The notes under the pieces were generated by a model that made no database searches, had not been told where the DNA came from, and was given only the letters and a program-made list of their open reading frames with translations. Shown here in pieces: positions 1-38,154 of a DNA stretch of 38,154 bases. Made by a program: the position numbers and the translations under genes. This DNA comes from Candidatus Sabulitectum sp. GTDB lineage: Bacteria; Fermentibacterota; Fermentibacteria; Fermentibacterales; JCC-6. The DNA is taken from assembly GCA_023139045.1 (NCBI GenBank), contig JAGLOJ010000090.1, positions 1 to 38,154 of the forward strand, in the 5' to 3' direction. Every line of letters begins with the position of its first letter. Within the stretch, counting starts at the first letter, position 1.

Positions 1-63
1 TAAGGCCAACGAAGCCACCAGGCCGCAGGACTCCTCGGGGTCAACTGAATTTGCTGGTTATAA
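1..63 (+). other. attC-like site, 3' arm (5' arm at 38014)
   Basis: The 3' arm at about 29-60 contains CTCCTCGGGGTCAACTG and ends TGCTGGTTA. It is complementary to the 5' arm at 38014-38043 (TAACGCCG...CAGCTGACCCGAGGAG), with one extra G and a mismatch. The two arms sit on opposite sides of the window junction, which supports circularity. The predicted crossover GTTA is 57-60, inside a reading frame. Confidence 0.75.
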
Positions 64-2055: not shown

Positions 2056-2238
2056 TAACGCCCATAATCAGTTGCCCGTAGGGGTAGAGGGGGAAATAAC
2101 ATGGAATGCAAAGACTGCAAAAACGAACTGGAACGCCAAACAGCCTGCTACGAATGTTTAGATGGCAGCAATTTTAAGCCAGCCGAAGCCACCGAAAGCC
2201 CGACCCCTACGGGTCAAGCTGAATTTGACTTGTTAAGA
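2056..2238 (+). other. attC-like site with gene start in its loop
   Basis: The 5' arm TAACGCCCATAATCAGTTGC continues CCGTAGGGGT. The 3' arm (2203-2235) is ACCCCTACGGG(T)CAA(G)CTG...TTGTTA. Eleven bases pair without a mismatch, then CAA and CTG pair with a single unpaired base before each. The loop of about 115 nt contains a GGGGG ribosome-binding site and the start at 2101. GTTA at 2232-2235 is in phase 2 of the frame. Confidence 0.8.
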
Positions 2239-2376
2239 CGCAAACAGTTTTTAGAGATAAAATATGAGATGGCCGATTGTGACTGGATGAGGGCCGTTGT
2301 TAATGACTATACGTGCGCGAGTGTGGTGTGGCTGTTGGAAGAAGTTGAAAGACTTTATAAACTGGATGCGTCTTAA
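2101..2376 (+). CDS. cassette protein with Cys-rich N-terminal module (91 aa)
   Basis: ATG 2101 follows AGAGGGGGAA. Cysteines at 3, 6, 16 and 19 (MECKDCKNELERQTACYECL) form a CxxC...CxxC pattern typical of a zinc ribbon. The linker EATESPTPTGQAEF is encoded by the 3' arm of the hairpin. The part after the crossover (RRKQFLEIKYEMADCDWMRA and VVWLLEEVERLYKL) is predicted mostly helical. Function is unknown; zinc binding is inferred. The stop at 2374 opens the next site. Confidence 0.7.
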   Translation: MECKDCKNELERQTACYECLDGSNFKPAEATESPTPTGQAEFDLLRRKQFLEIKYEMADCDWMRAVVNDYTCASVVWLLEEVERLYKLDAS

Positions 2377-2575
2377 CGATTTAGATCAGTTGCCCGAAGG
2401 GGTAACGGGAGGGAGTGACATGGAAAAGATATGCGCCTACAGTGAGAAATATTGCCAGTTTGATGCGTGTGCAGTTGCCACTGCAGATGAAGATTGCGAC
2501 GAGAATTGTATTTACTTGGCCGAAGCCCCTGAAAAGCCGATCCCTTCGGGTCAAACTGTATCGACCTGGTTAGCC
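2374..2575 (+). other. attC-like site with gene start in its loop
   Basis: The 5' arm TAACGATTTAGATCAGTTGC continues CCGAAGGG to 2401. CCCGAAGGG (2393-2401) pairs perfectly with CCCTTCGGG (2542-2550). TTG then pairs with CAA and CAG with CTG, leaving T2551 and A2555 unpaired. The loop of about 140 nt contains GGAGGG, the ATG at 2420 and about 40 codons. GTTA at 2569-2572 is in phase 2 of the frame. Confidence 0.8.
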
Positions 2576-3117: not shown

Positions 3118-3774
3118 ATGAGCGCAGAAAAGTTAACAAAAGGCGAATCAAAAGTAATTGCCAATTATGATGGAACCGTGAAGGGTACACATATTGCCAC
3201 CGGTTTATCATATGGCTATTGTCGAAAGGTTCTTTCGTTTGATTATATCAAAGAGGCGATTAAGGAACTTGAGAAACTGGATCCACCCGAAGAAGAAAAG
3301 AAAACCGACAAGCGGATCGGGAACAGATTCTGGGAGGCGCGTAGTTCCCACGGCAGGAAGCCGATCTTTCTCAATGCAGATAAGCTATGGGAAGCATGTC
3401 TTGAATATTTCAAATGGGTTGATGATAATCCCCTGCATGAATCTAAGCCCTTTGCTTACCAGGGAACCGTTGTTTTAAAAGAAGTCCCAAAGATGCGGGC
3501 CATGACGATAGGAGGCTTATGCCTGTTTCTTGATATCAGTGAGGATACCTGGGCTAATTACAGGAAAAGAGAAGGTTTTCTAGGAGTCACAGCCGATATC
3601 GAACGAGCAATTAAGAATCAGAAATTTACCGGGGCCGCTGCCGACCTGCTCAATGCCAATATTATTGCCCGTGATTTAGGGCTAGTTGATAAGACCGATA
3701 CCACCATATCAAACCCAGAAGGTCGCACTTTCAATATGCACTTTATACGGAGCCCGGATAAGAAGGGGAGTTGA
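3118..3774 (+). CDS. terminase small subunit
   Basis: The 218-residue protein has an N-terminal DNA-binding-like segment ([20 protein letters not shown] resembles a helix-turn-helix). A C-terminal half follows with [37 protein letters not shown] and [16 protein letters not shown], the pattern of gp3-type small terminases of tailed phages. It would recognise phage DNA and feed the large subunit. The large terminase lies about 480 bases downstream, after two small genes. No clear ribosome-binding site precedes ATG 3118. Family assignment is from memory. Confidence 0.8.
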
Positions 3775-4046: not shown

Positions 4047-4253
4047 GTGAAATCTTTAAAACATCTTTTCTATTTTTTATTTGGTACCAAGGCAAAAACA
4101 AAAACCTCCACCGGGTATATATTTCAAGGAAGATATTTTAATAGAGATGGTTCTGTAAGTGCTGGAGATCTAGTTTGTACTATGCCAACCCACAAACCTC
4201 ATCTATTAGGACAACTAGGCACACAGCCAGAAAACCCTTGGCCTAGGGCTTGA
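4047..4253 (+). CDS. hypothetical protein (68 aa)
   Basis: AAAGGAGG at 4034-4040 favours the GTG at 4047 over the GTG at 4041, which would touch the ribosome-binding site. The N-terminus is basic and hydrophobic (MKSLKHLFYFLFGTKAKTKT) and the C-terminus is proline-rich. Its last codons overlap the TTG start of the large terminase. Function unknown. Confidence 0.55.
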   Translation: MKSLKHLFYFLFGTKAKTKTSTGYIFQGRYFNRDGSVSAGDLVCTMPTHKPHLLGQLGTQPENPWPRA

Positions 4254-5623
4254 TAACTCACGACATAGAAGTCCACGAAAAGTTTGAATTCCTGTACCTC
4301 CCCAAACGGTACAAAGTATCATGGGGTGGCCGGGGCGGCATGAAGACATGGGAATACTCCCGCGCCCTGGTCATCCTCTCCTCACAAAAGCGGCTTAATA
4401 TAGTATGTGGTCGCCAGTTCCAAACCTCAGTAAAGCAATCAGTCAAGCATTCCATCGAAGAGCAGATCATACACCTCGGTCTGGAAGATGAGTTTGATAT
4501 CCAGAAGGAGGTCATTGTCCAGAAAGTGACCGGTTCAGTTTTTGAGTTCCAAGGGCTTGATCGTAACATCATGAATGTGAAGGGCTGGGATCATGTCGAC
4601 ATCTTGTGGATCGAAGAAGCCCAGACCATGCTATCCGATAAACTTGAGATCGTGTTGCCCTCGATCAGAAAGGCCGGATCTGAGGTCTGGTTCTCTTTTA
4701 ACCGTGGGAAAAGGTCTGACGCTGTTGATAAGATGTTCCTGGCCAAAGATTCCGACTTAACCGAGGCCACGGTAGTCCAGGTAAGCTGGCAAGATAATCC
4801 AAACCATCCAGCGGAACTCGAGATCGAGCGGCAGCGATGCCTCAAGATGCACCCGGAAAGATATCCCCATATCTGGGACGGTGAGCCAGATGACACCGGG
4901 GGCAAATGGAAAGTTCTTTCTTATGCCAAGCTGCTAAAATGTGTCGATGCCCATATCAAGTTAAATTATAAACCGTCTGGCATGGTATATTCCGGGCTTG
5001 ATATAGCAGATGAGGGGAACGATACAAATTGTTGGTCTAAGCGCCAAGGGTCGTTGTTGTCCGTGGCCAGAGAATGGAAAGTTAAGTACCTCCACATGAC
5101 GGCAACCAAGGCTGACTTTCTTAATCAGGAAAGCAATGTGATCAGCATGCACTACGATGCTGGTGGTATGGGTGCCGGGATCAAATCTGATCTGTCACGG
5201 ATAAAGCACAATCCTAATTCTGGACTCGGTGCCCAGGCCAAGAGGTTTATCCCGTTCCATTTCGGTGGTAAGGTTAAGGGCTCCAACAAATACTTCATCA
5301 AGCATAAGCAGCTAAAAATAAGGAACAAAGATTATTTCAGCAAAGCCAATTCGCAATTATGGTGGAACATCAAACTGCGGGTTGAGAATACGATCAAGGC
5401 ACTAGATGGCGAAAAGGTAGATCTTGATAAATGTTTTTTTATTGATTCATCTATTGACAACCTCGATAAAATACTGTCAGAATTATCCCAATGCGTGTAT
5501 GATGATAGCAGTGGCAAGATTGTTGTGGACAAAGCGCCAGATGGTGCCGATTCCCCGAATGTAGCTGATTCAATAATTCTTGCGTATGCCAATGACATCA
5601 AAAAAGGGCTCAAGGCGGCATGA
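4250..5623 (+). CDS. terminase large subunit
   Basis: This is the 457-residue packaging motor, PBSX/SPP1-like. The ATPase domain has a Walker A-type loop GGRGGMKTW at residues 27-34 and a Walker B strand ILWIEEAQ at 118-125. The nuclease domain has acidic residues in YSGLDIADEG (Asp251), HYDAGGMGAG (Asp303) and NVADSIILAY (Asp440). A TTG start is required because the Walker A loop lies close to the N-terminus and no ATG precedes it. It translocates DNA into proheads through the portal encoded next. Headful packaging by such enzymes fits the circular layout. Confidence 0.92.
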   Translation: MITHDIEVHEKFEFLYLPKRYKVSWGGRGGMKTWEYSRALVILSSQKRLNIVCGRQFQTSVKQSVKHSIEEQIIHLGLEDEFDIQKEVIVQKVTGSVFEFQGLDRNIMNVKGWDHVDILWIEEAQTMLSDKLEIVLPSIRKAGSEVWFSFNRGKRSDAVDKMFLAKDSDLTEATVVQVSWQDNPNHPAELEIERQRCLKMHPERYPHIWDGEPDDTGGKWKVLSYAKLLKCVDAHIKLNYKPSGMVYSGLDIADEGNDTNCWSKRQGSLLSVAREWKVKYLHMTATKADFLNQESNVISMHYDAGGMGAGIKSDLSRIKHNPNSGLGAQAKRFIPFHFGGKVKGSNKYFIKHKQLKIRNKDYFSKANSQLWWNIKLRVENTIKALDGEKVDLDKCFFIDSSIDNLDKILSELSQCVYDDSSGKIVVDKAPDGADSPNVADSIILAYANDIKKGLKAA

Positions 5624-7020: not shown

Positions 7021-7804
7021 GAACCCAAAAGGTATTCGGCCTTTGCGGAAAGACGAGCGGGCCTATGAAAAGGCGATCAAGACCAATATCCTGAATCCGC
7101 TGCTTGCTACAACCAGAGACCGGCTGGCCTCCGTGCCGCAGATCAAGACTGCATATGCCAACACCGTGGCCGCTGTCTTTGAAGAATTCGACATTGATGC
7201 AGAAAGCGCCGTTGTGGTTGGTGGTTATATTGACGGCTTGAGGCGCAGCCAGAAAGCTCGTATGGCCATACAGTTTCAAGCAGCTTTAGGTGTTGATGTC
7301 GGCCCAGCCTTGACAGATCTTGCAATTAGGCCTTTAATGGATCAGGCTATTGCCACCAATATCAACCTGATCAAGAGCATCCCAGATAATTTAAAGGGAC
7401 AAGTGCTGGATCAGTTCGATACTCTGCTGGCAAAAGCCCCATTCGATCAGCAAGCGATGGTCGGCGCATTAGAGGATCGGTTTAAAGTTGCCGGTAACCG
7501 AGCCCGGACAATTGCACGAGACCAGACCGGCAAGATAGTGGGCAATCTTAACGAGGCAAGGCAAGGCCAGCTCGGGATTAAATCTTATACTTGGCAAACC
7601 TCAGAAGACGAGAGGGTTGTCGGTACACCAGGCGGAGAGTTTCCAGATGGCAACGATGTGCATGGCAATCATTTTGACAGAAACGGCAAGGAGTTCTTGT
7701 GGTCGCAACCGCCTTTTGATGGACACCCTGGAGAGCCAATCAATTGCCGATGCATAGCGATCCCGGTAATCCCTGAGTTACAGGAAGAGGAGCAAGCAGC
7801 ATGA
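7007..7804 (+). CDS. MuF/SPP1 gp7-like head morphogenesis protein
   Basis: I prefer GTG 7007 (MAKRKNPKGIRPLRKDERAY) because AGGTGGAG lies just upstream; GTG 6998 is also possible. The C-terminal third has the phage Mu F-type motif: ARTIARDQTGKIVGNLNEAR, then YTWQTSEDERV, and PPFDGHPGEPINCRCIAIPV, with His and Cys residues of the minor head protein fold. Such proteins are few per capsid and sit near the portal. It overlaps the portal gene by 14 bases and the next gene by four. Confidence 0.88.
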   Translation: MAKRKNPKGIRPLRKDERAYEKAIKTNILNPLLATTRDRLASVPQIKTAYANTVAAVFEEFDIDAESAVVVGGYIDGLRRSQKARMAIQFQAALGVDVGPALTDLAIRPLMDQAIATNINLIKSIPDNLKGQVLDQFDTLLAKAPFDQQAMVGALEDRFKVAGNRARTIARDQTGKIVGNLNEARQGQLGIKSYTWQTSEDERVVGTPGGEFPDGNDVHGNHFDRNGKEFLWSQPPFDGHPGEPINCRCIAIPVIPELQEEEQAA

Positions 7805-9060
7805 GACAAAGAACCATGACAAAACTCAGGGATTTTAATTCTGGCAAGATCCAGGTCAGCGATAACGTCACCCTGCCGGCCACCAGCACCCGTGAATTGA
7901 CTCCAGAAGGATATCTCAAAGCAACCGCCGCCATTACCATGGTCGGGGTTCAGATGTATCCAGCAAGAGACTTTGGGATTGACTCGGACGAACTTGTTGG
8001 GGTGCTCCGACCGAAGGAGACGGTATTCCACCCTGAAACTATATCGACCATCAAGCTAAAACCAATCACCCTGCATCACCCCCAGGACGATGTAGATTCA
8101 AAGAATTTCAACAGGCTGACAATTGGCACCGTTGGTGAAACGGTAGAGGCTCTTGACTCTGAACATCTTGGGGCATCAATCCAGATTATGGATGATGATG
8201 TTGTAAAAAAAGTATTGGCCCGCGAGATCGATGAATTAAGTCTTGGGTATGATGTATGGGTTATATCAGAAGAGGGTACATTTAACGGAGCAGGCTATCT
8301 TTTCAAGATGGATGGCCCCATGACTAATAATCACCTCGCCGTTGTCCCTGAAGGGCGTTGCGGCGATTCAGTAAAAATCCTAGATAAAGGAGAAAGTATT
8401 ATGTGGAAAAAACTGCAAGCGATTAAAGCGCTCAGGGACGCTGGAGTTCCCGAGGGATTAATCAAAACGTTTATGGTCGGTCAAGCCGATGACGCTGAGG
8501 TTGATGTCAAGGCCTACACCAAACTAGCGATGTCGGCCAAAGACATCGACATGACCCAGCTCATCCCCGGTATTATTGCTGAGCTGAAACCGGCGATTGA
8601 AGAGATGGTCGGTAGTGAAGAGTTCAAGGCTACTTTGGCCAAGGAAATTGCCGCTGGCATGGTTGGTGGTGCGGCTACCCCCGCGACTACCACCGAGGGC
8701 GCTGACGGTGAAGGAGAAGGTGAGCCGATGACCACTGAGCAGATCGATGCTGCTATTGTGGATGGGGCTGCAAAACGGGCCGTTCTCATTGGCACTGCCA
8801 AGCTGTTCATCACCGATGAAAATTTTGATATATCAACTGCCAGCGATCACGACATCCTTGTCAAATCCCTGGACGCTCTTGATATCAAAGGTGACGATAT
8901 CGCCGGGAAGGATGATACCTATCTTGCCGGGATGCTTGCCGTGATCAGTAAAGACCGCGCCGAGGCAGGTACTTTTATGAAGCAGGATTTCAGGGCCGCT
9001 GATGGTGTTGCCTTGGCTGCTCCCATGACCGGTATCGGGGCCCGTAAGTTAATCGGCTAG
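7801..9060 (+). CDS. DUF2213 prohead protease with scaffold-like C-terminus
   Basis: GAGGAG eight bases upstream supports ATG 7801. The first about 190 residues match DUF2213: KPITLHHPQDD, EIDELSLGYDVWVISEEGTF and TNNHLAVVPEGRCGD, with the His and Ser expected in a phage maturation protease. From residue 201 the protein changes to an acidic, helical, low-complexity region (GGAATPATTTEGADGEGEGE), typical of a scaffold. A strong internal start at 8401 would yield the scaffold alone. Protease activity is inferred from family. Confidence 0.85.
   Translation: MRQRTMTKLRDFNSGKIQVSDNVTLPATSTRELTPEGYLKATAAITMVGVQMYPARDFGIDSDELVGVLRPKETVFHPETISTIKLKPITLHHPQDDVDSKNFNRLTIGTVGETVEALDSEHLGASIQIMDDDVVKKVLAREIDELSLGYDVWVISEEGTFNGAGYLFKMDGPMTNNHLAVVPEGRCGDSVKILDKGESIMWKKLQAIKALRDAGVPEGLIKTFMVGQADDAEVDVKAYTKLAMSAKDIDMTQLIPGIIAELKPAIEEMVGSEEFKATLAKEIAAGMVGGAATPATTTEGADGEGEGEPMTTEQIDAAIVDGAAKRAVLIGTAKLFITDENFDISTASDHDILVKSLDALDIKGDDIAGKDDTYLAGMLAVISKDRAEAGTFMKQDFRAADGVALAAPMTGIGARKLIG
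8401..9060 (+). CDS. nested scaffold protein (internal start, 219 aa)
   Basis: AAAGGAGA at 8386-8393 lies eight bases before ATG 8401, in frame within the DUF2213 gene. The product (MWKKLQAIKALRDAGVPEGL...) would lack the protease domain. The arrangement parallels lambda C/Nu3, where a scaffold is translated from within the protease gene. The ribosome-binding site is as good as those of the genuine starts around it. Expression is inference. Confidence 0.6.
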   Translation: MWKKLQAIKALRDAGVPEGLIKTFMVGQADDAEVDVKAYTKLAMSAKDIDMTQLIPGIIAELKPAIEEMVGSEEFKATLAKEIAAGMVGGAATPATTTEGADGEGEGEPMTTEQIDAAIVDGAAKRAVLIGTAKLFITDENFDISTASDHDILVKSLDALDIKGDDIAGKDDTYLAGMLAVISKDRAEAGTFMKQDFRAADGVALAAPMTGIGARKLIG

Positions 9061-35153: not shown

Positions 35154-35271
35154 GCATGGGAAGGTATCTCTCCACCGATCTCCGGCTGAGTTTATCGCCT
35201 TGCATGGCACAGAGCTGGAGTTAGAAGTCACGCAGAAGGCTATATTGGGAGAGGTGGAACGTTTGAGCTAA
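35056..35271 (+). CDS. doubtful frame between HNH gene and array (up to 71 aa)
   Basis: The frame overlaps the HNH gene by nearly 100 bases, and no start with a ribosome-binding site is clear. The end (SPAEFIALHGTELELEVTQK) is protein-like. It may be a remnant or begin at an unusual codon after 35153. The stop lies beside a degenerate 5' arm (AACGTTTGAGCTAAGACG). Confidence 0.3.
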   Translation: MIAMEKLNGEKLKYRGLNWNVLVIIPRIRKDYEHGKVSLHRSPAEFIALHGTELELEVTQKAILGEVERLS

Positions 35272-35305
35272 GACGTAAAGAGGTAAACTAGAAAGGAGAT
35301 TGATT

Positions 35306-35686
35306 ATGTTAGATGTATTGTTGAAATGTATTGATAACTTAGCCATAGGTGGCGAACTTACCCAGAATGAAATTGAAAAGATGAAAGATATGGCAGTAAA
35401 ACTACACGACAAACACCAGACCGAACAGGCCGCTTGCGCCAGTGGTTCGGCTGGAGCGACCTTGTTGGCTGCCAAAGAAAGCGGCGAAGGGCAAGAATTA
35501 AACAAAGGACATTACCACGAAATAATTGATCGAAGCCATTTGATTTGCAGCATGATAGATGACTTTGTTATCGGCCACCCAGGTATGACCACCGAGATGA
35601 ATGAACTTTGCAGGGAGGCCCAAAGTAGGCTGTGCAAAGTCACGAACTTGGCGTGTGGAGAAGAAGACCGCAACTTTGGCAGCTAA
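35306..35686 (+). CDS. hypothetical protein at array start (126 aa)
   Basis: AAAGGAG precedes ATG 35306. Helical start (MLDVLLKCIDNLAIGGELTQ), then a low-complexity linker (ACASGSAGATLLAAKESGEG) in the same place as the linkers of other array proteins, then HYHEIIDRSHLICSMIDDFV. The stop TAA at 35684 begins the first clear attC-like site. The upstream leader shares AACTAGAAAGGAGAT with the leader of the gene at 612, so they probably have a common origin. Function unknown. Confidence 0.65.
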   Translation: MLDVLLKCIDNLAIGGELTQNEIEKMKDMAVKLHDKHQTEQAACASGSAGATLLAAKESGEGQELNKGHYHEIIDRSHLICSMIDDFVIGHPGMTTEMNELCREAQSRLCKVTNLACGEEDRNFGS

Positions 35687-35805
35687 CGATAAAGCTAACC
35701 AGTGCGAAACATGAGGTGGAACCATGTACGATGAGCGATTGGACGGCAAAATTAACGATACCAAACCGGACGTGGCAGCATCTGCCGTTGAGCGCCTGGT
35801 TATGT
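35684..35805 (+). other. attC-like site with gene start in its loop
   Basis: TAACGATAAAGCTAACCAGT followed by GC pairs with GCA(T)CTG(CC)GTTGAGC...CTGGTTA. The loop is short and holds GAGGTGG and the ATG at 35724. GTTA at 35799-35802 is in phase 0 of the reading frame. Confidence 0.6.
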
Positions 35806-35948
35806 GGGCTAAAGAACGTGCTTTGTCGGCCAAGAAAGAGGCTGATAGTAGCCGGACTGGAAAAGTGCGATACCATGAATGTGCTGCCGAATGTGCCGCA
35901 TACTCTGAGGTAGTTAGATACATTAACAACAATATTATTGAAACATAA
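35724..35948 (+). CDS. cassette protein (74 aa)
   Basis: GAGGTGG precedes the ATG. The N-terminal 25 residues (MYDERLDGKINDTKPDVAAS) have no cysteines, unlike the related array proteins; the crossover codon is Val26. After it the protein is one long basic helix region (MWAKERALSAKKEADSSRTG) with paired cysteines in HECAAECAAYSEVV. Function unknown. Confidence 0.65.
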   Translation: MYDERLDGKINDTKPDVAASAVERLVMWAKERALSAKKEADSSRTGKVRYHECAAECAAYSEVVRYINNNIIET

Positions 35949-36066
35949 CGCTAAAGTTAACCCGCCCACCGTGGCGAAACTATTAACTAATACGAGTATT
36001 AAGGAGAGCAAAGCACAACGAAAGATCGCACGTTCTCGTGGGTCGGCGTTGAACGTTTTGTTATGT
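35946..36066 (+). other. attC site
   Basis: TAACGCTAAAGTTAACCCGC plus CCAC pairs with GTGGG(T)CGG(C)GTTGAACG...TTTGTTA, with a T and a C unpaired. The loop of about 65 nt has a small inverted TATTAACTAATACGAGTATT element. GTTA is at 36060-36063. Confidence 0.85.
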
Positions 36067-36263: not shown

Positions 36264-36442
36264 ACAAGTCATGTGGTAATTGCAGATATTGGTTGAAATT
36301 AAAGTCAATAAAAGGGTTGTGTGATAAGTTTGATTTGGGATGGGCTAAATCTGACCACCAAGCCTGTGATAGCTGGAAAAGAATTAGGGACGATAAAAAG
36401 CCTAGGGAAAAGTTAAAAGTCTCAGATTATTTGGACACATAA
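36260..36442 (+). CDS. cassette Cys4 metal-binding protein (60 aa)
   Basis: CGNCRYW, GLCDKFDLG and QACDSWKR give a CxxC-C-C pattern like small zinc or iron-sulphur proteins. The C-terminal half is highly charged. It is coupled to the gene before it, and its TAA begins the next attC site. Substrate unknown. Confidence 0.65.
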   Translation: MNKSCGNCRYWLKLKSIKGLCDKFDLGWAKSDHQACDSWKRIRDDKKPREKLKVSDYLDT

Positions 36443-36527
36443 CGATTGAGGCCAGCGGCGGGCCAGTGAAGCCCGCCATGAATAATGCCGCATACGTGGA
36501 CCCGTCCACTGTGCTGACTGGTTAAAA
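36440..36527 (+). other. attC site
   Basis: TAACGATTGAGGCCAGCGGC with GGG pairs with CCCG(T)CCACTG(T)GCTGACTGGTTA allowing one mismatch. Two bases stay unpaired in the 3' arm. GTTA is at 36521-36524. Confidence 0.8.
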
Positions 36528-36542
36528 GGACAGGAGGGCGGA

Positions 36543-36749
36543 ATGGATAAGAAAATAAAAATTGATCTTGAGTTAATGAGAGAATGTCGGGAGGGAAATT
36601 GGAATCTGTACGCATCCCAACGATATAACGATAAACTTCTGCGACTTTGGACAAACAGTGTTGGATATTACAAAGTTGAATATGGTGGTGAAGTTATTTA
36701 TGAAGGAAGCCAATTGACTCATATGCTTGAAGCATGGAAGTCCGTTTAA
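36543..36749 (+). CDS. cassette hypothetical protein (68 aa)
   Basis: AGGAGG precedes the ATG by six bases. The protein starts MDKKIKIDLELMRECREGNW and has a beta pair YYKVEYGGEVIYEGSQL. Not recognised. Its TAA opens the following site. Confidence 0.7.
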   Translation: MDKKIKIDLELMRECREGNWNLYASQRYNDKLLRLWTNSVGYYKVEYGGEVIYEGSQLTHMLEAWKSV

Positions 36750-36832
36750 CGACCAGCATAACCAGCGGGCCACCAAACTTGGGAGTTAGCCCGCCAAAGA
36801 TCCAGCCGTCTGCGTTTATTGGCTGGTTAACT
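36747..36832 (+). other. canonical attC site
   Basis: TAACGACCAGCATAACCAGC followed by GGGC pairs with the 3' arm CCG(T)CTG(C)GTTTATTGGCTGGTTA. Its last 33 nt are identical to those of the site at 906. GTTA is at 36826-36829. Confidence 0.88.
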
Positions 36833-36849: not shown

Positions 36850-36987
36850 GTGGGAGACGACAAAACAACAAAATGCCCGGGATGTAATTGTGAAGAATAC
36901 ACGCATGGGGACGAGCTAGGTGATGGTTTTAGGATGTGCGCCGAATGTGGCCAGGAATGGTGGACTGACATCGACTACACCAGTTAA
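36850..36987 (+). CDS. cassette zinc-ribbon microprotein (45 aa)
   Basis: GAAGGAGG lies about seven bases before the GTG start at 36850. CPGCNC (residues 9-14) and CAEC (30-33) form a zinc ribbon around an acidic hairpin (EEYTHGDELGDGFRM), ending QEWWTDIDYTS. It fills its cassette completely and ends on the TAA of the next site. It may bind DNA, RNA or a host protein. Confidence 0.75.
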   Translation: MGDDKTTKCPGCNCEEYTHGDELGDGFRMCAECGQEWWTDIDYTS

Positions 36988-37073
36988 CGGACGTAATCAC
37001 CAGCGGCCCTAAGAGCTTGACCGCTTTAGCGCCGCCCACGTTCGCGCCGTCTGCGTGAATTTAATTGTTAAAT
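36985..37073 (+). other. canonical attC site
   Basis: TAACGGACGTAATCACCAGC followed by GGC pairs with GCCG(T)CTG(C)GTGAATT...ATTGTTA, with T and C unpaired. GTTA is at 37067-37070; GTTAAAT matches the integron core GTTRRRY. Confidence 0.88.
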
Positions 37074-37309: not shown

Positions 37310-37368
37310 TAACGTTATTTATTTTGCCGCACGGCTCCTTTGTGTCGGCTGGAATATGCTGGTTATAA
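37310..37368 (+). other. short attC site
   Basis: TAACGTTATTTATTTTGCCG followed by CAC pairs with GTG(T)CGGC...TATGCTGGTTA. It is the shortest site (about 59 nt), because its loop is only a few bases. GTTA is at 37362-37365. Confidence 0.75.
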
Positions 37369-37418: not shown

Positions 37419-37964
37419 ATGAAAGGATTAACCATTGCCAATGGCGGTGATAAATCAAAAAGAAGAAAAATGGACTTTTATCCCACCCCACCAGAAGCAA
37501 CGCACGCACTTATGAAATTCTTAAAACTTGGACCTTGTTTAATATGTGAACCCGCTTGCGGCGATGGTGCTATGGCCGAAGTTTTGAAGCAATACGGGCA
37601 TGGTATAATGGCGAGTGACTTGAGACAATCTGGGTATGGTTGTGGAGGTGTAGATTTTTTACTATCGGATGGTGATTATGACGCTATTATAACAAATCCC
37701 CCATTTAATGTGAGTGAAGAATTTATTAGGCACGCTATTCCACAAGCAAGAGTTGTTGCCATGATTCTAAAATCTCAATACTGGCATGCCAAGAAGAGAA
37801 GAAAATTATTTAATGAGTTCCCTCCTGCATATGTTTTGCCACTGACTTGGAGGCCAGATTTTGGCGGCGGTGGCAGTCCTACAATGGAGGTAACGTGGAC
37901 GGTGTGGATTGAGGGGGAAGAGGACACCAGGTATAGGCAATTAAGTAAGCCTTTAAAAGTTTAA
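37419..37964 (+). CDS. cassette DNA adenine-type methyltransferase (181 aa)
   Basis: AAAAGGAGG precedes the ATG. The start (MDFYPTPPEATHALMKFL) is typical of phage SAM-dependent methyltransferases. EPACGDGAMAEVL (residues 44-56) is the SAM-binding motif I and TNPPF (92-96) the catalytic motif IV. The end carries the PLTWRPDFGGG segment. It may protect phage DNA from host restriction. No matching nuclease lies nearby. It is the only clear enzyme in the array. Target sequence unknown. Confidence 0.85.
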   Translation: MKGLTIANGGDKSKRRKMDFYPTPPEATHALMKFLKLGPCLICEPACGDGAMAEVLKQYGHGIMASDLRQSGYGCGGVDFLLSDGDYDAIITNPPFNVSEEFIRHAIPQARVVAMILKSQYWHAKKRRKLFNEFPPAYVLPLTWRPDFGGGGSPTMEVTWTVWIEGEEDTRYRQLSKPLKV

Positions 37965-38013: not shown

Positions 38014-38154
38014 TAACGCCGATAATCAGCTGACCCGAGGAGGTTAGAAAGTGAGTGAGAAGAAATGCGAATATTTGACAGGCAACCAGTGCGATATAAA
38101 CAAGGAATATTGTGAGATTCCCGCAGGTTTTTCTTGTAGGAACCGTGTGGCATA
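38014..38154 (+). other. attC-like site, 5' arm and gene start in loop (3' arm at 1-63)
   Basis: TAACGCCGATAATCAGCTGA continues CCCGAGGAGG and pairs with CTCCTCGGGGTCAACTG at the window start. The loop holds the GTG start at 38051 and crosses the junction. This is the site that shows the window ends belong together. Confidence 0.75.
38051..38154 (+). CDS. N-terminal part of junction-spanning cassette protein
   Basis: GTG 38051 lies about ten bases after GAGGAGG; an alternative reading is a later start. The first 34 residues (MSEKKCEYLTGNQCDINKEY, then CEIPAGFSCRNRVA) have cysteines at 6, 14, 21 and 29, the same module as in the proteins at 267, 612, 2101 and 2420. The codon split by the window end (ta + t) is completed by base 1, and the frame continues to 223. 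Confidence 0.72.
   Translation, partial: MSEKKCEYLTGNQCDINKEYCEIPAGFSCRNRVA

Follow-up and report, generated by a model that had tools for sequence, protein, structure and literature searches.

The textbook integron cassette is a unit in which a gene is followed by its attC site and which is read from a promoter next to intI. In class 1 integrons every resistance gene has an attC of its own that stays downstream of it, and in sedentary chromosomal integrons, such as those with the Vibrio VCR, one attC type recurs beside many genes, as it does in the array described here. The choice of the attC strand, and hence the recombination point, is mainly set by the extrahelical bases, which by definition lie on the R''-L'' arm; when these bases are inverted the recombination point shifts to the other attC box, and in the R' box the base that follows AAC is usually G (PMC2727003). 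Integrons have also been described in phages, and in the part of Qi et al. 2023 (PMC9892861) used here, phage CALINs and integrons are attC arrays that mostly lack IntI and carry small genes and methyltransferases, and phage attC sites are active with IntI1. The cassettes of the phage analysed here and of related phages depart from the canonical gene cassette in that the attC precedes the gene and is inverted.

An attC array in a contractile-tailed phage

The window (the whole stretch of DNA that was analysed, contig C196, 38 kb or 38,154 nt, from a MAG of 205 contigs) belongs to a contractile-tailed myovirus and encodes small and large terminase subunits, portal, major head protein, tail sheath and baseplate. 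The contig appears circular, since the 5' arm of an attC-like site at 38014 pairs with window positions 33-49 and the join is bridged by an ORF that stays in frame. The array of attC-like sites begins near 35257, crosses the contig ends and stops at 2734, in the same direction as the terminase genes that lie downstream of it on the + strand, the small subunit at 3118-3774 (PHROGs, 4.5e-53) and the large subunit at 4250-5623 (2.7e-43). Comparison of the array with phage and plasmid records by blastn gave no match, the window had zero matches in Rfam, and neither the cassette proteins nor their modules gave a Pfam match above cut-off, so that the Cys-rich modules described below are without an assigned family. 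A DNA methyltransferase-like cargo gene is found at 37419-37964 and another in related phage record G029 (L303), and a small conserved phage protein (..ERQRQI..EGWT..HDDEH..) is encoded at 1010-1318 and at about 12150 in record L070, behind unrelated attCs.

Fourteen clear attC sites, each of the form TAAC...GTTA with a paired stem, were located on the + strand, together with a fifteenth that is probable. The stem score covers 14 positions and was computed for each site with extra bases allowed in the 3' arm and, for comparison, in the 5' arm (the two scores are given in that order below). Six of the clear sites and the probable one have boxes 118-210 nt apart and carry a Shine-Dalgarno-like sequence and a start codon in the loop. 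Site 2056 (2056-2238; R' TAA|CG at 2056, R'' GTTAAGA at 2232; 14/14 versus 7/14) spans 180 nt from TAAC to the end of GTTA and is paired over 11 bp by CCCGTAGGGGT, and site 2374 (2374-2575; R' at 2374, R'' GTTAGCC at 2569; 14/14 versus 8/14) spans 199 nt and is paired over 9 bp by CCCGAAGGG, with an RBS and an ATG in the loop of each. The corresponding spans are 188 nt at site 221 (221-411; R'' GTTAAGT at 405; 12/14 versus 10/14), 194 nt at site 561 (561-757; R'' GTTATGC at 751; 13/14 versus 10/14) and 119 nt at site 35684 (35684-35805; 10/14 versus 8/14), the weakest of the set. Site 38014 has its 5' part, with the R' box and a GTG at 38051, at 38014-38154 and its 3' part at 1-63, and closes across the contig ends onto R'' GTTATAA at window 57, with a span of 201 nt (13/14 versus 11/14). 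The probable site, the first of the array (35257-35470; GAAC|G at 35257 to GTTGG at 35464), was assigned by eye only and has an ATG at 35306 in its loop. The remaining clear sites lie at 35946-36066, without an in-loop start (14/14 versus 11/14), 36440-36527 (12/14 versus 9/14), 36747-36832 (11/14 versus 9/14), 36985-37073 (13/14 versus 8/14), 37310-37368 (11/14 versus 10/14), 906-989 (12/14 versus 10/14), 1316-1400 (14/14 versus 11/14) and 1664-1750 (12/14 versus 10/14).

Stem scores of the 14 sites range from 10 to 14 and reach at least 13 in 7, a score of 13 that shuffled 3' arms attained in 0 of 300 trials. A scan of the whole window at a score of at least 13, which used a stricter box and a prefilter and hence returned 6 matches and not 7, placed all of these on the gene strand within the array and none on the other strand. 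Folding energy of the single strand does not by itself reach significance at long-loop sites (z -1.4 and -0.6), in keeping with a short stem that encloses a long loop. All 14 sites have the paired R and L boxes with the AAC / GTT core of integron attCs, and all 14 carry extrahelical bases, correctly spaced, on one arm only, the 3' arm. With 14 attC sites, where at least two define a CALIN, and no adjacent intI, the array is a CALIN and not a complete integron; indeed, contig C196 gave no match to TIGR02249 or PF00589 and is thus without IntI. Elsewhere in the MAG there is a full-length IntI gene on contig C126 (L017, 2455-3399), a second, IntI-like gene on C140 (L018, 458-1381) and a fragment on C124 (L019, 2771-3181). 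The short attC motif of the window was found on no other MAG contig, which leaves the true host or helper of the phage uncertain.

The in-loop starts open reading frames that each pass through GTTA. The frame that begins at ATG 2101 in site 2056 runs to 2376, with GTTA in codon phase 2 and its stop TAA in the next R' box, and that from ATG 2420 in site 2374 runs to 2734 and ends at TAA|CAG, the right end of the array. Site 221 opens a frame at GTG 267 (267-563, phase 0), site 561 at ATG 612 (612-908, phase 1) and site 35684 at ATG 35724 (35724-35948, phase 0, ..SAVERLV^MWAK..), while the frame from GTG 38051 continues in frame across the contig join to a stop at 223 (phase 1); the fused ORF of the probable site occupies 35306-35686. 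Cys-rich N-terminal modules are encoded by five of the six loops, among them those of sites 2374, 221 and 561, and for four modules a Cys content of 9-11% was computed. These observations bear out all that the preliminary description had noted of the sites. It had reported arms 120-205 nt apart with an in-loop RBS and start at six sites, good arm pairing at 2056 and 2374, a Cys-rich module in five of the six loops and GTTA inside the reading frame; every one of the six sites lies where it had been placed, and the probable site at 35257 was not among them.

Polarity of the sites and relatives in other phages

The orientation of each attC determines which of its boxes is predicted to be recombined. 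Each of the 14 window sites has its higher stem score when the extra bases are allowed in the 3' arm; the three extrahelical bases of that arm are at 4-nt spacing, as are G16, T20 and T24 of the VCR (PMC2727003), and G follows the 5' AAC in 14 of 14. The polarity is weak at single sites, as at 37310 with its scores of 11 and 10. Identical scoring of control sites and arrays (aadA7, the Vibrio phage Va_90-11-286_p16 with its integron fragment, Shewanella phage M16-3 and Tetrasphaera phage TJE1) returned the usual gene-then-attC orientation. As judged from the sequence, the cassette genes of the window are reversed relative to their own attCs. By the published strand-selection rules, the 3'-arm extrahelical bases together with the G after the 5' AAC predict that IntI crosses over at TAA|CG, at the stop codon of the upstream gene, and that GTTA is the R'' box. 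A crossover at R' would fall before the attC, and thus the in-loop start codon would not be cut off.

The same reversed design is present in about 30 other phage records (at least 27), which were gathered by pattern scans of viral contigs and with an IntI query. The curated set comprises 151 attC-gene units in 28 records after removal of near-duplicate records; loci that came from the too-loose pattern GGTCAAN{0,1}CTG.. were left out. AACG is found at 119 of the 151 5' boxes and at 3 of the 151 3' boxes, in a set whose detector favours the reported polarity, so that independence rests on the comparison of the two strands and on the controls. At the strict threshold hardly any sites have the opposite polarity, and in 26 of 28 records the RBS-bearing ORFs are mainly on the coding strand used here, L265 being contrary by length and G010 having none. 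A match in L060 (Sessilibacter) looks like chance and was rejected. In record L310 (virus Rctr41k, KX853513, from a methanotroph enrichment) an integrase-like gene is related to the phage IntI, and most attC-like sites follow the usual order of gene, then attC. Record G006 (L226) carries at 7424-8214 a tandem repeat of about 135 nt, with copies 76-80% identical.

Six related phage records encode an IntI above the TIGR02249 cut-off (L055 / L218, 2485-3465; also G005, G006, G007, G017 and G029). In G001 the intI gene is located at the terminase end of the reversed array, immediately before the terminase genes, and its transcription leads away from the array; it is thus placed as in canonical integrons, and there only the genes are turned round. 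The arrangement was not found in the open-access literature on phage integrons, CALINs and reversed cassettes, although an earlier description is possible outside it. The reversed phage cassette arrays with attC-encoded starts appear to be a new integron variant.

Cassette movement and the R'' junction

The attC-encoded N-terminal stretch often makes up the first 15-55 amino acids of the gene, and the same stretch can precede unrelated proteins. Among the five Cys-rich sites of the window most pairs have homologous attC and leader DNA (z up to 14), 2 of the 10 pairs being weak (z 1.7 and 2.6), whereas the C-terminal DNA is at background (z at most 1.9). Two of these five leaders thus have little in common with some of the others. 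The 50 nt before GTTA match at up to 37 positions between window sites, against a random-pair 99th percentile of 23, and the 50 nt after it at no more than 20. For the Cys-module proteins of the window itself, the search for close relatives gave only one chance match (L315, without an array), and the exchange of those exact modules therefore rests on the comparison within the window. In other phages, the MTTxATPGALGSNDQ^ leader occurs at L239:2502 and L247:4343, with attCs 98% identical, and the MSExxTQAVGAPLERQV^ leader at G008:28224 and L247:3869, with attCs 89% identical; in both cases the proteins are unrelated. The translated 3' arm reads APLERxV^RP in many high-GC phages, at the place of which window sites 35684 and 221 read VERLV and LERLV. 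A recurrent stretch follows R'' in high-GC phages (L265, G029 and G018 among them), GTTAGGC..TG..CCGAAGCGAGGAAA..ATG, as a 5' leader or translated as ..PER...

Across the phage set, 156 attC pairs are at least 75% identical and downstream genes are homologous in 2 of them; conversely, attC identity is near background in most of the 27 pairs of homologous genes. Several homologous cassette genes carry different attCs in G007, G029 and G030. In the 24 attC pairs of at least 85% identity, from which the duplicate in G022 was left out, identity is high through GTTRRRY and at background beyond about +7, and on the other side it drops upstream of the R' box. Homologous recombination inside attCs was considered as a cause of gene exchange and is disfavoured, since the break is at the box, at the end of the attC, and not inside it.

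The segments that are shared between loci are informative on movement. Among 137 shared stretches, 62 cover the attC only, 6 run from inside a gene to R', 1 covers a gene only (R'' to R') and none runs from R'' to R''. Record G022 holds a complete recent duplicate of an attC-gene unit in which attC and gene are both identical, and in G001 (99%) and in G003 (100%) the duplicated segment runs from a contig edge to TAA|C. One gene is identical from GTTA to TAAC in G003 and G007, where the upstream attCs differ. Whole cassettes most likely move at TAA|C, to judge from these segments, and the R'' junction has been remade many times in evolution, apart from whole-cassette movement; among the candidates for the joining of attCs to new genes at R'' is IntI action on the opposite strand. 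The preliminary description had predicted the same leader before unrelated C-termini with identity breaking at GTTA, and this pattern is seen in and outside the window. It had also taken GTTA as the crossover point; here the extrahelical bases and the post-AAC G point to TAA|CG, outside the gene, and the duplications end at TAA|C with no R''-R'' segment. Of the protein-diversifying integron that it proposed, the shared N-module with different C-termini thus stands, while the crossover at GTTA is not the most likely mechanism, though R'' may be used at low frequency.

We put the probability of the reversed-cassette reading as a whole, with attC before the gene, IntI acting at TAA|C, starts supplied by the loop and turnover at R'', at about 0.78. 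In the direction of the gene, the cassette would read R' (TAA|C-G), 5' arm, loop, 3' arm, R'' (GTTA), gene and TAA, and the attC, leader and gene would travel as one unit. IntI, which would act in trans here and is phage-encoded in some relatives, is proposed to act on the folded coding strand and to recombine it at TAA|C; the TAA stop of the upstream gene corresponds to the G|TTA core site in antisense. Roughly one cassette in three has its RBS and start codon, together with an N-terminal leader or module, supplied by the loop, and translation of the 3' arm would yield a linker, for example ..APLERxV^RP... Transcription would come from phage read-through towards the terminase genes and not from a canonical Pc. 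Turnover of the attC-gene junction at R'', by a process that we can only infer, would put one leader on unrelated proteins.

Two other accounts deny that the loops encode protein starts or that the hairpins are attCs. In the former, the in-loop frames are accidental and genes start after GTTA, as they indeed may at 33 of the 41 sites with loops shorter than 65 nt, which have a post-GTTA start, and leader codons are without a clear third-position excess, for which there are few pairs. We regard this as very unlikely, since 51 of the 60 in-loop starts of the phage set that have an RBS and are open to GTTA continue for at least 40 codons beyond it (85%), compared with 12% of other frames, and since fused starts concentrate in long loops (1 of 41 sites with loops below 65 nt, 22 of 32 with loops of at least 100 nt) and about half of the fused ORFs stop exactly at the TAA|C of the next site (22 of the 41 that have one). 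That the hairpins are terminators or other phage repeats would fit the unexceptional folding energies of the long-loop sites, but is hardly credible given the R and L boxes, the three extrahelical bases at attC spacing, the close likeness to the aadA7 bottom strand and the TIGR02249 integrases beside such arrays.

The point of exchange is less clear-cut. An IntI crossover at an intragenic GTTA, by which the C-terminal domain is swapped while start and N-module stay in place, would explain why identity breaks just after R'', why one leader is found on unrelated C-termini and why G003 and G007 share a gene exactly from GTTA to TAAC behind different attCs, and recombination of the opposite strand can be measured, though its frequency is low (PMC2727003, PMC9892861). 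It is unlikely nevertheless: the extrahelical bases and post-AAC G indicate TAA|C, recent duplications follow TAA|C with none from GTTA to GTTA, and within the window GTTA is seen in each of the three codon phases, so that a precise exchange there would in many cases cause a frameshift. We are doubtful, if slightly less so, of a mixed scheme in which IntI uses both attC boxes and the attC with its leader and the gene body are separately mobile, building new fusion proteins. The chances are about even for a refinement of the reversed-cassette reading, in which a putative non-IntI process joins genes to attCs at R'' and later movement takes place only at R', cassette genesis being treated as a separate process (PMC8352920). 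It accords with the lack of linkage between attC and downstream gene across phages, with the sole complete recent duplicate, which keeps both, and with a break at the end of the attC; on the other side, different genes follow attCs that are up to 99% identical, and the process would therefore have to be frequent or recent.

Comparison with known systems

These arrays would represent a widespread class in phages: all their cassettes are reversed, crossover would fall at the stop codon, and part of the recombination site would be read as an N-terminus. One half of a site is predicted to be coding and the other non-coding. As attCs and genes seem to join and separate at a precise point, they also offer material for the long-open question of how a gene acquires an attC.

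Diversity-generating retroelements and other phage protein-variation systems yield varied proteins with a constant part, and the outcome is possibly alike here; the retroelements differ in that no reverse transcriptase or template repeat is implied here, and variation consists of different bodies on one start module. Compared with class 1 cassettes, attCs and genes are unlinked in the phage arrays described here and the attC is upstream. The site itself is close to a class 1 attC: the R'-L' arm of aadA7 is nearly superimposable on that of the window (TAACGCTTGAGTTAAGCCG versus TAACGCTAAAGTTAACCCG), and the 5' arm of the window sites is almost the same as the aadA7 bottom strand. The genes of TJE1, Vibrio p16 and Shewanella M16-3 precede the attC in the usual orientation, whereas those of the window are reversed. 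The Vibrio VCR arrays have extrahelical bases spaced as in the window (PMC2727003), but their genes run the opposite way relative to attC and no gene start lies inside the attC. The phage CALINs of PMC9892861, in the part of that report used here, are like the window in being attC arrays, mostly IntI-less, with small genes and methyltransferases; no attC-encoded starts are reported in that part for the phage integrons, whereas the window has such starts.
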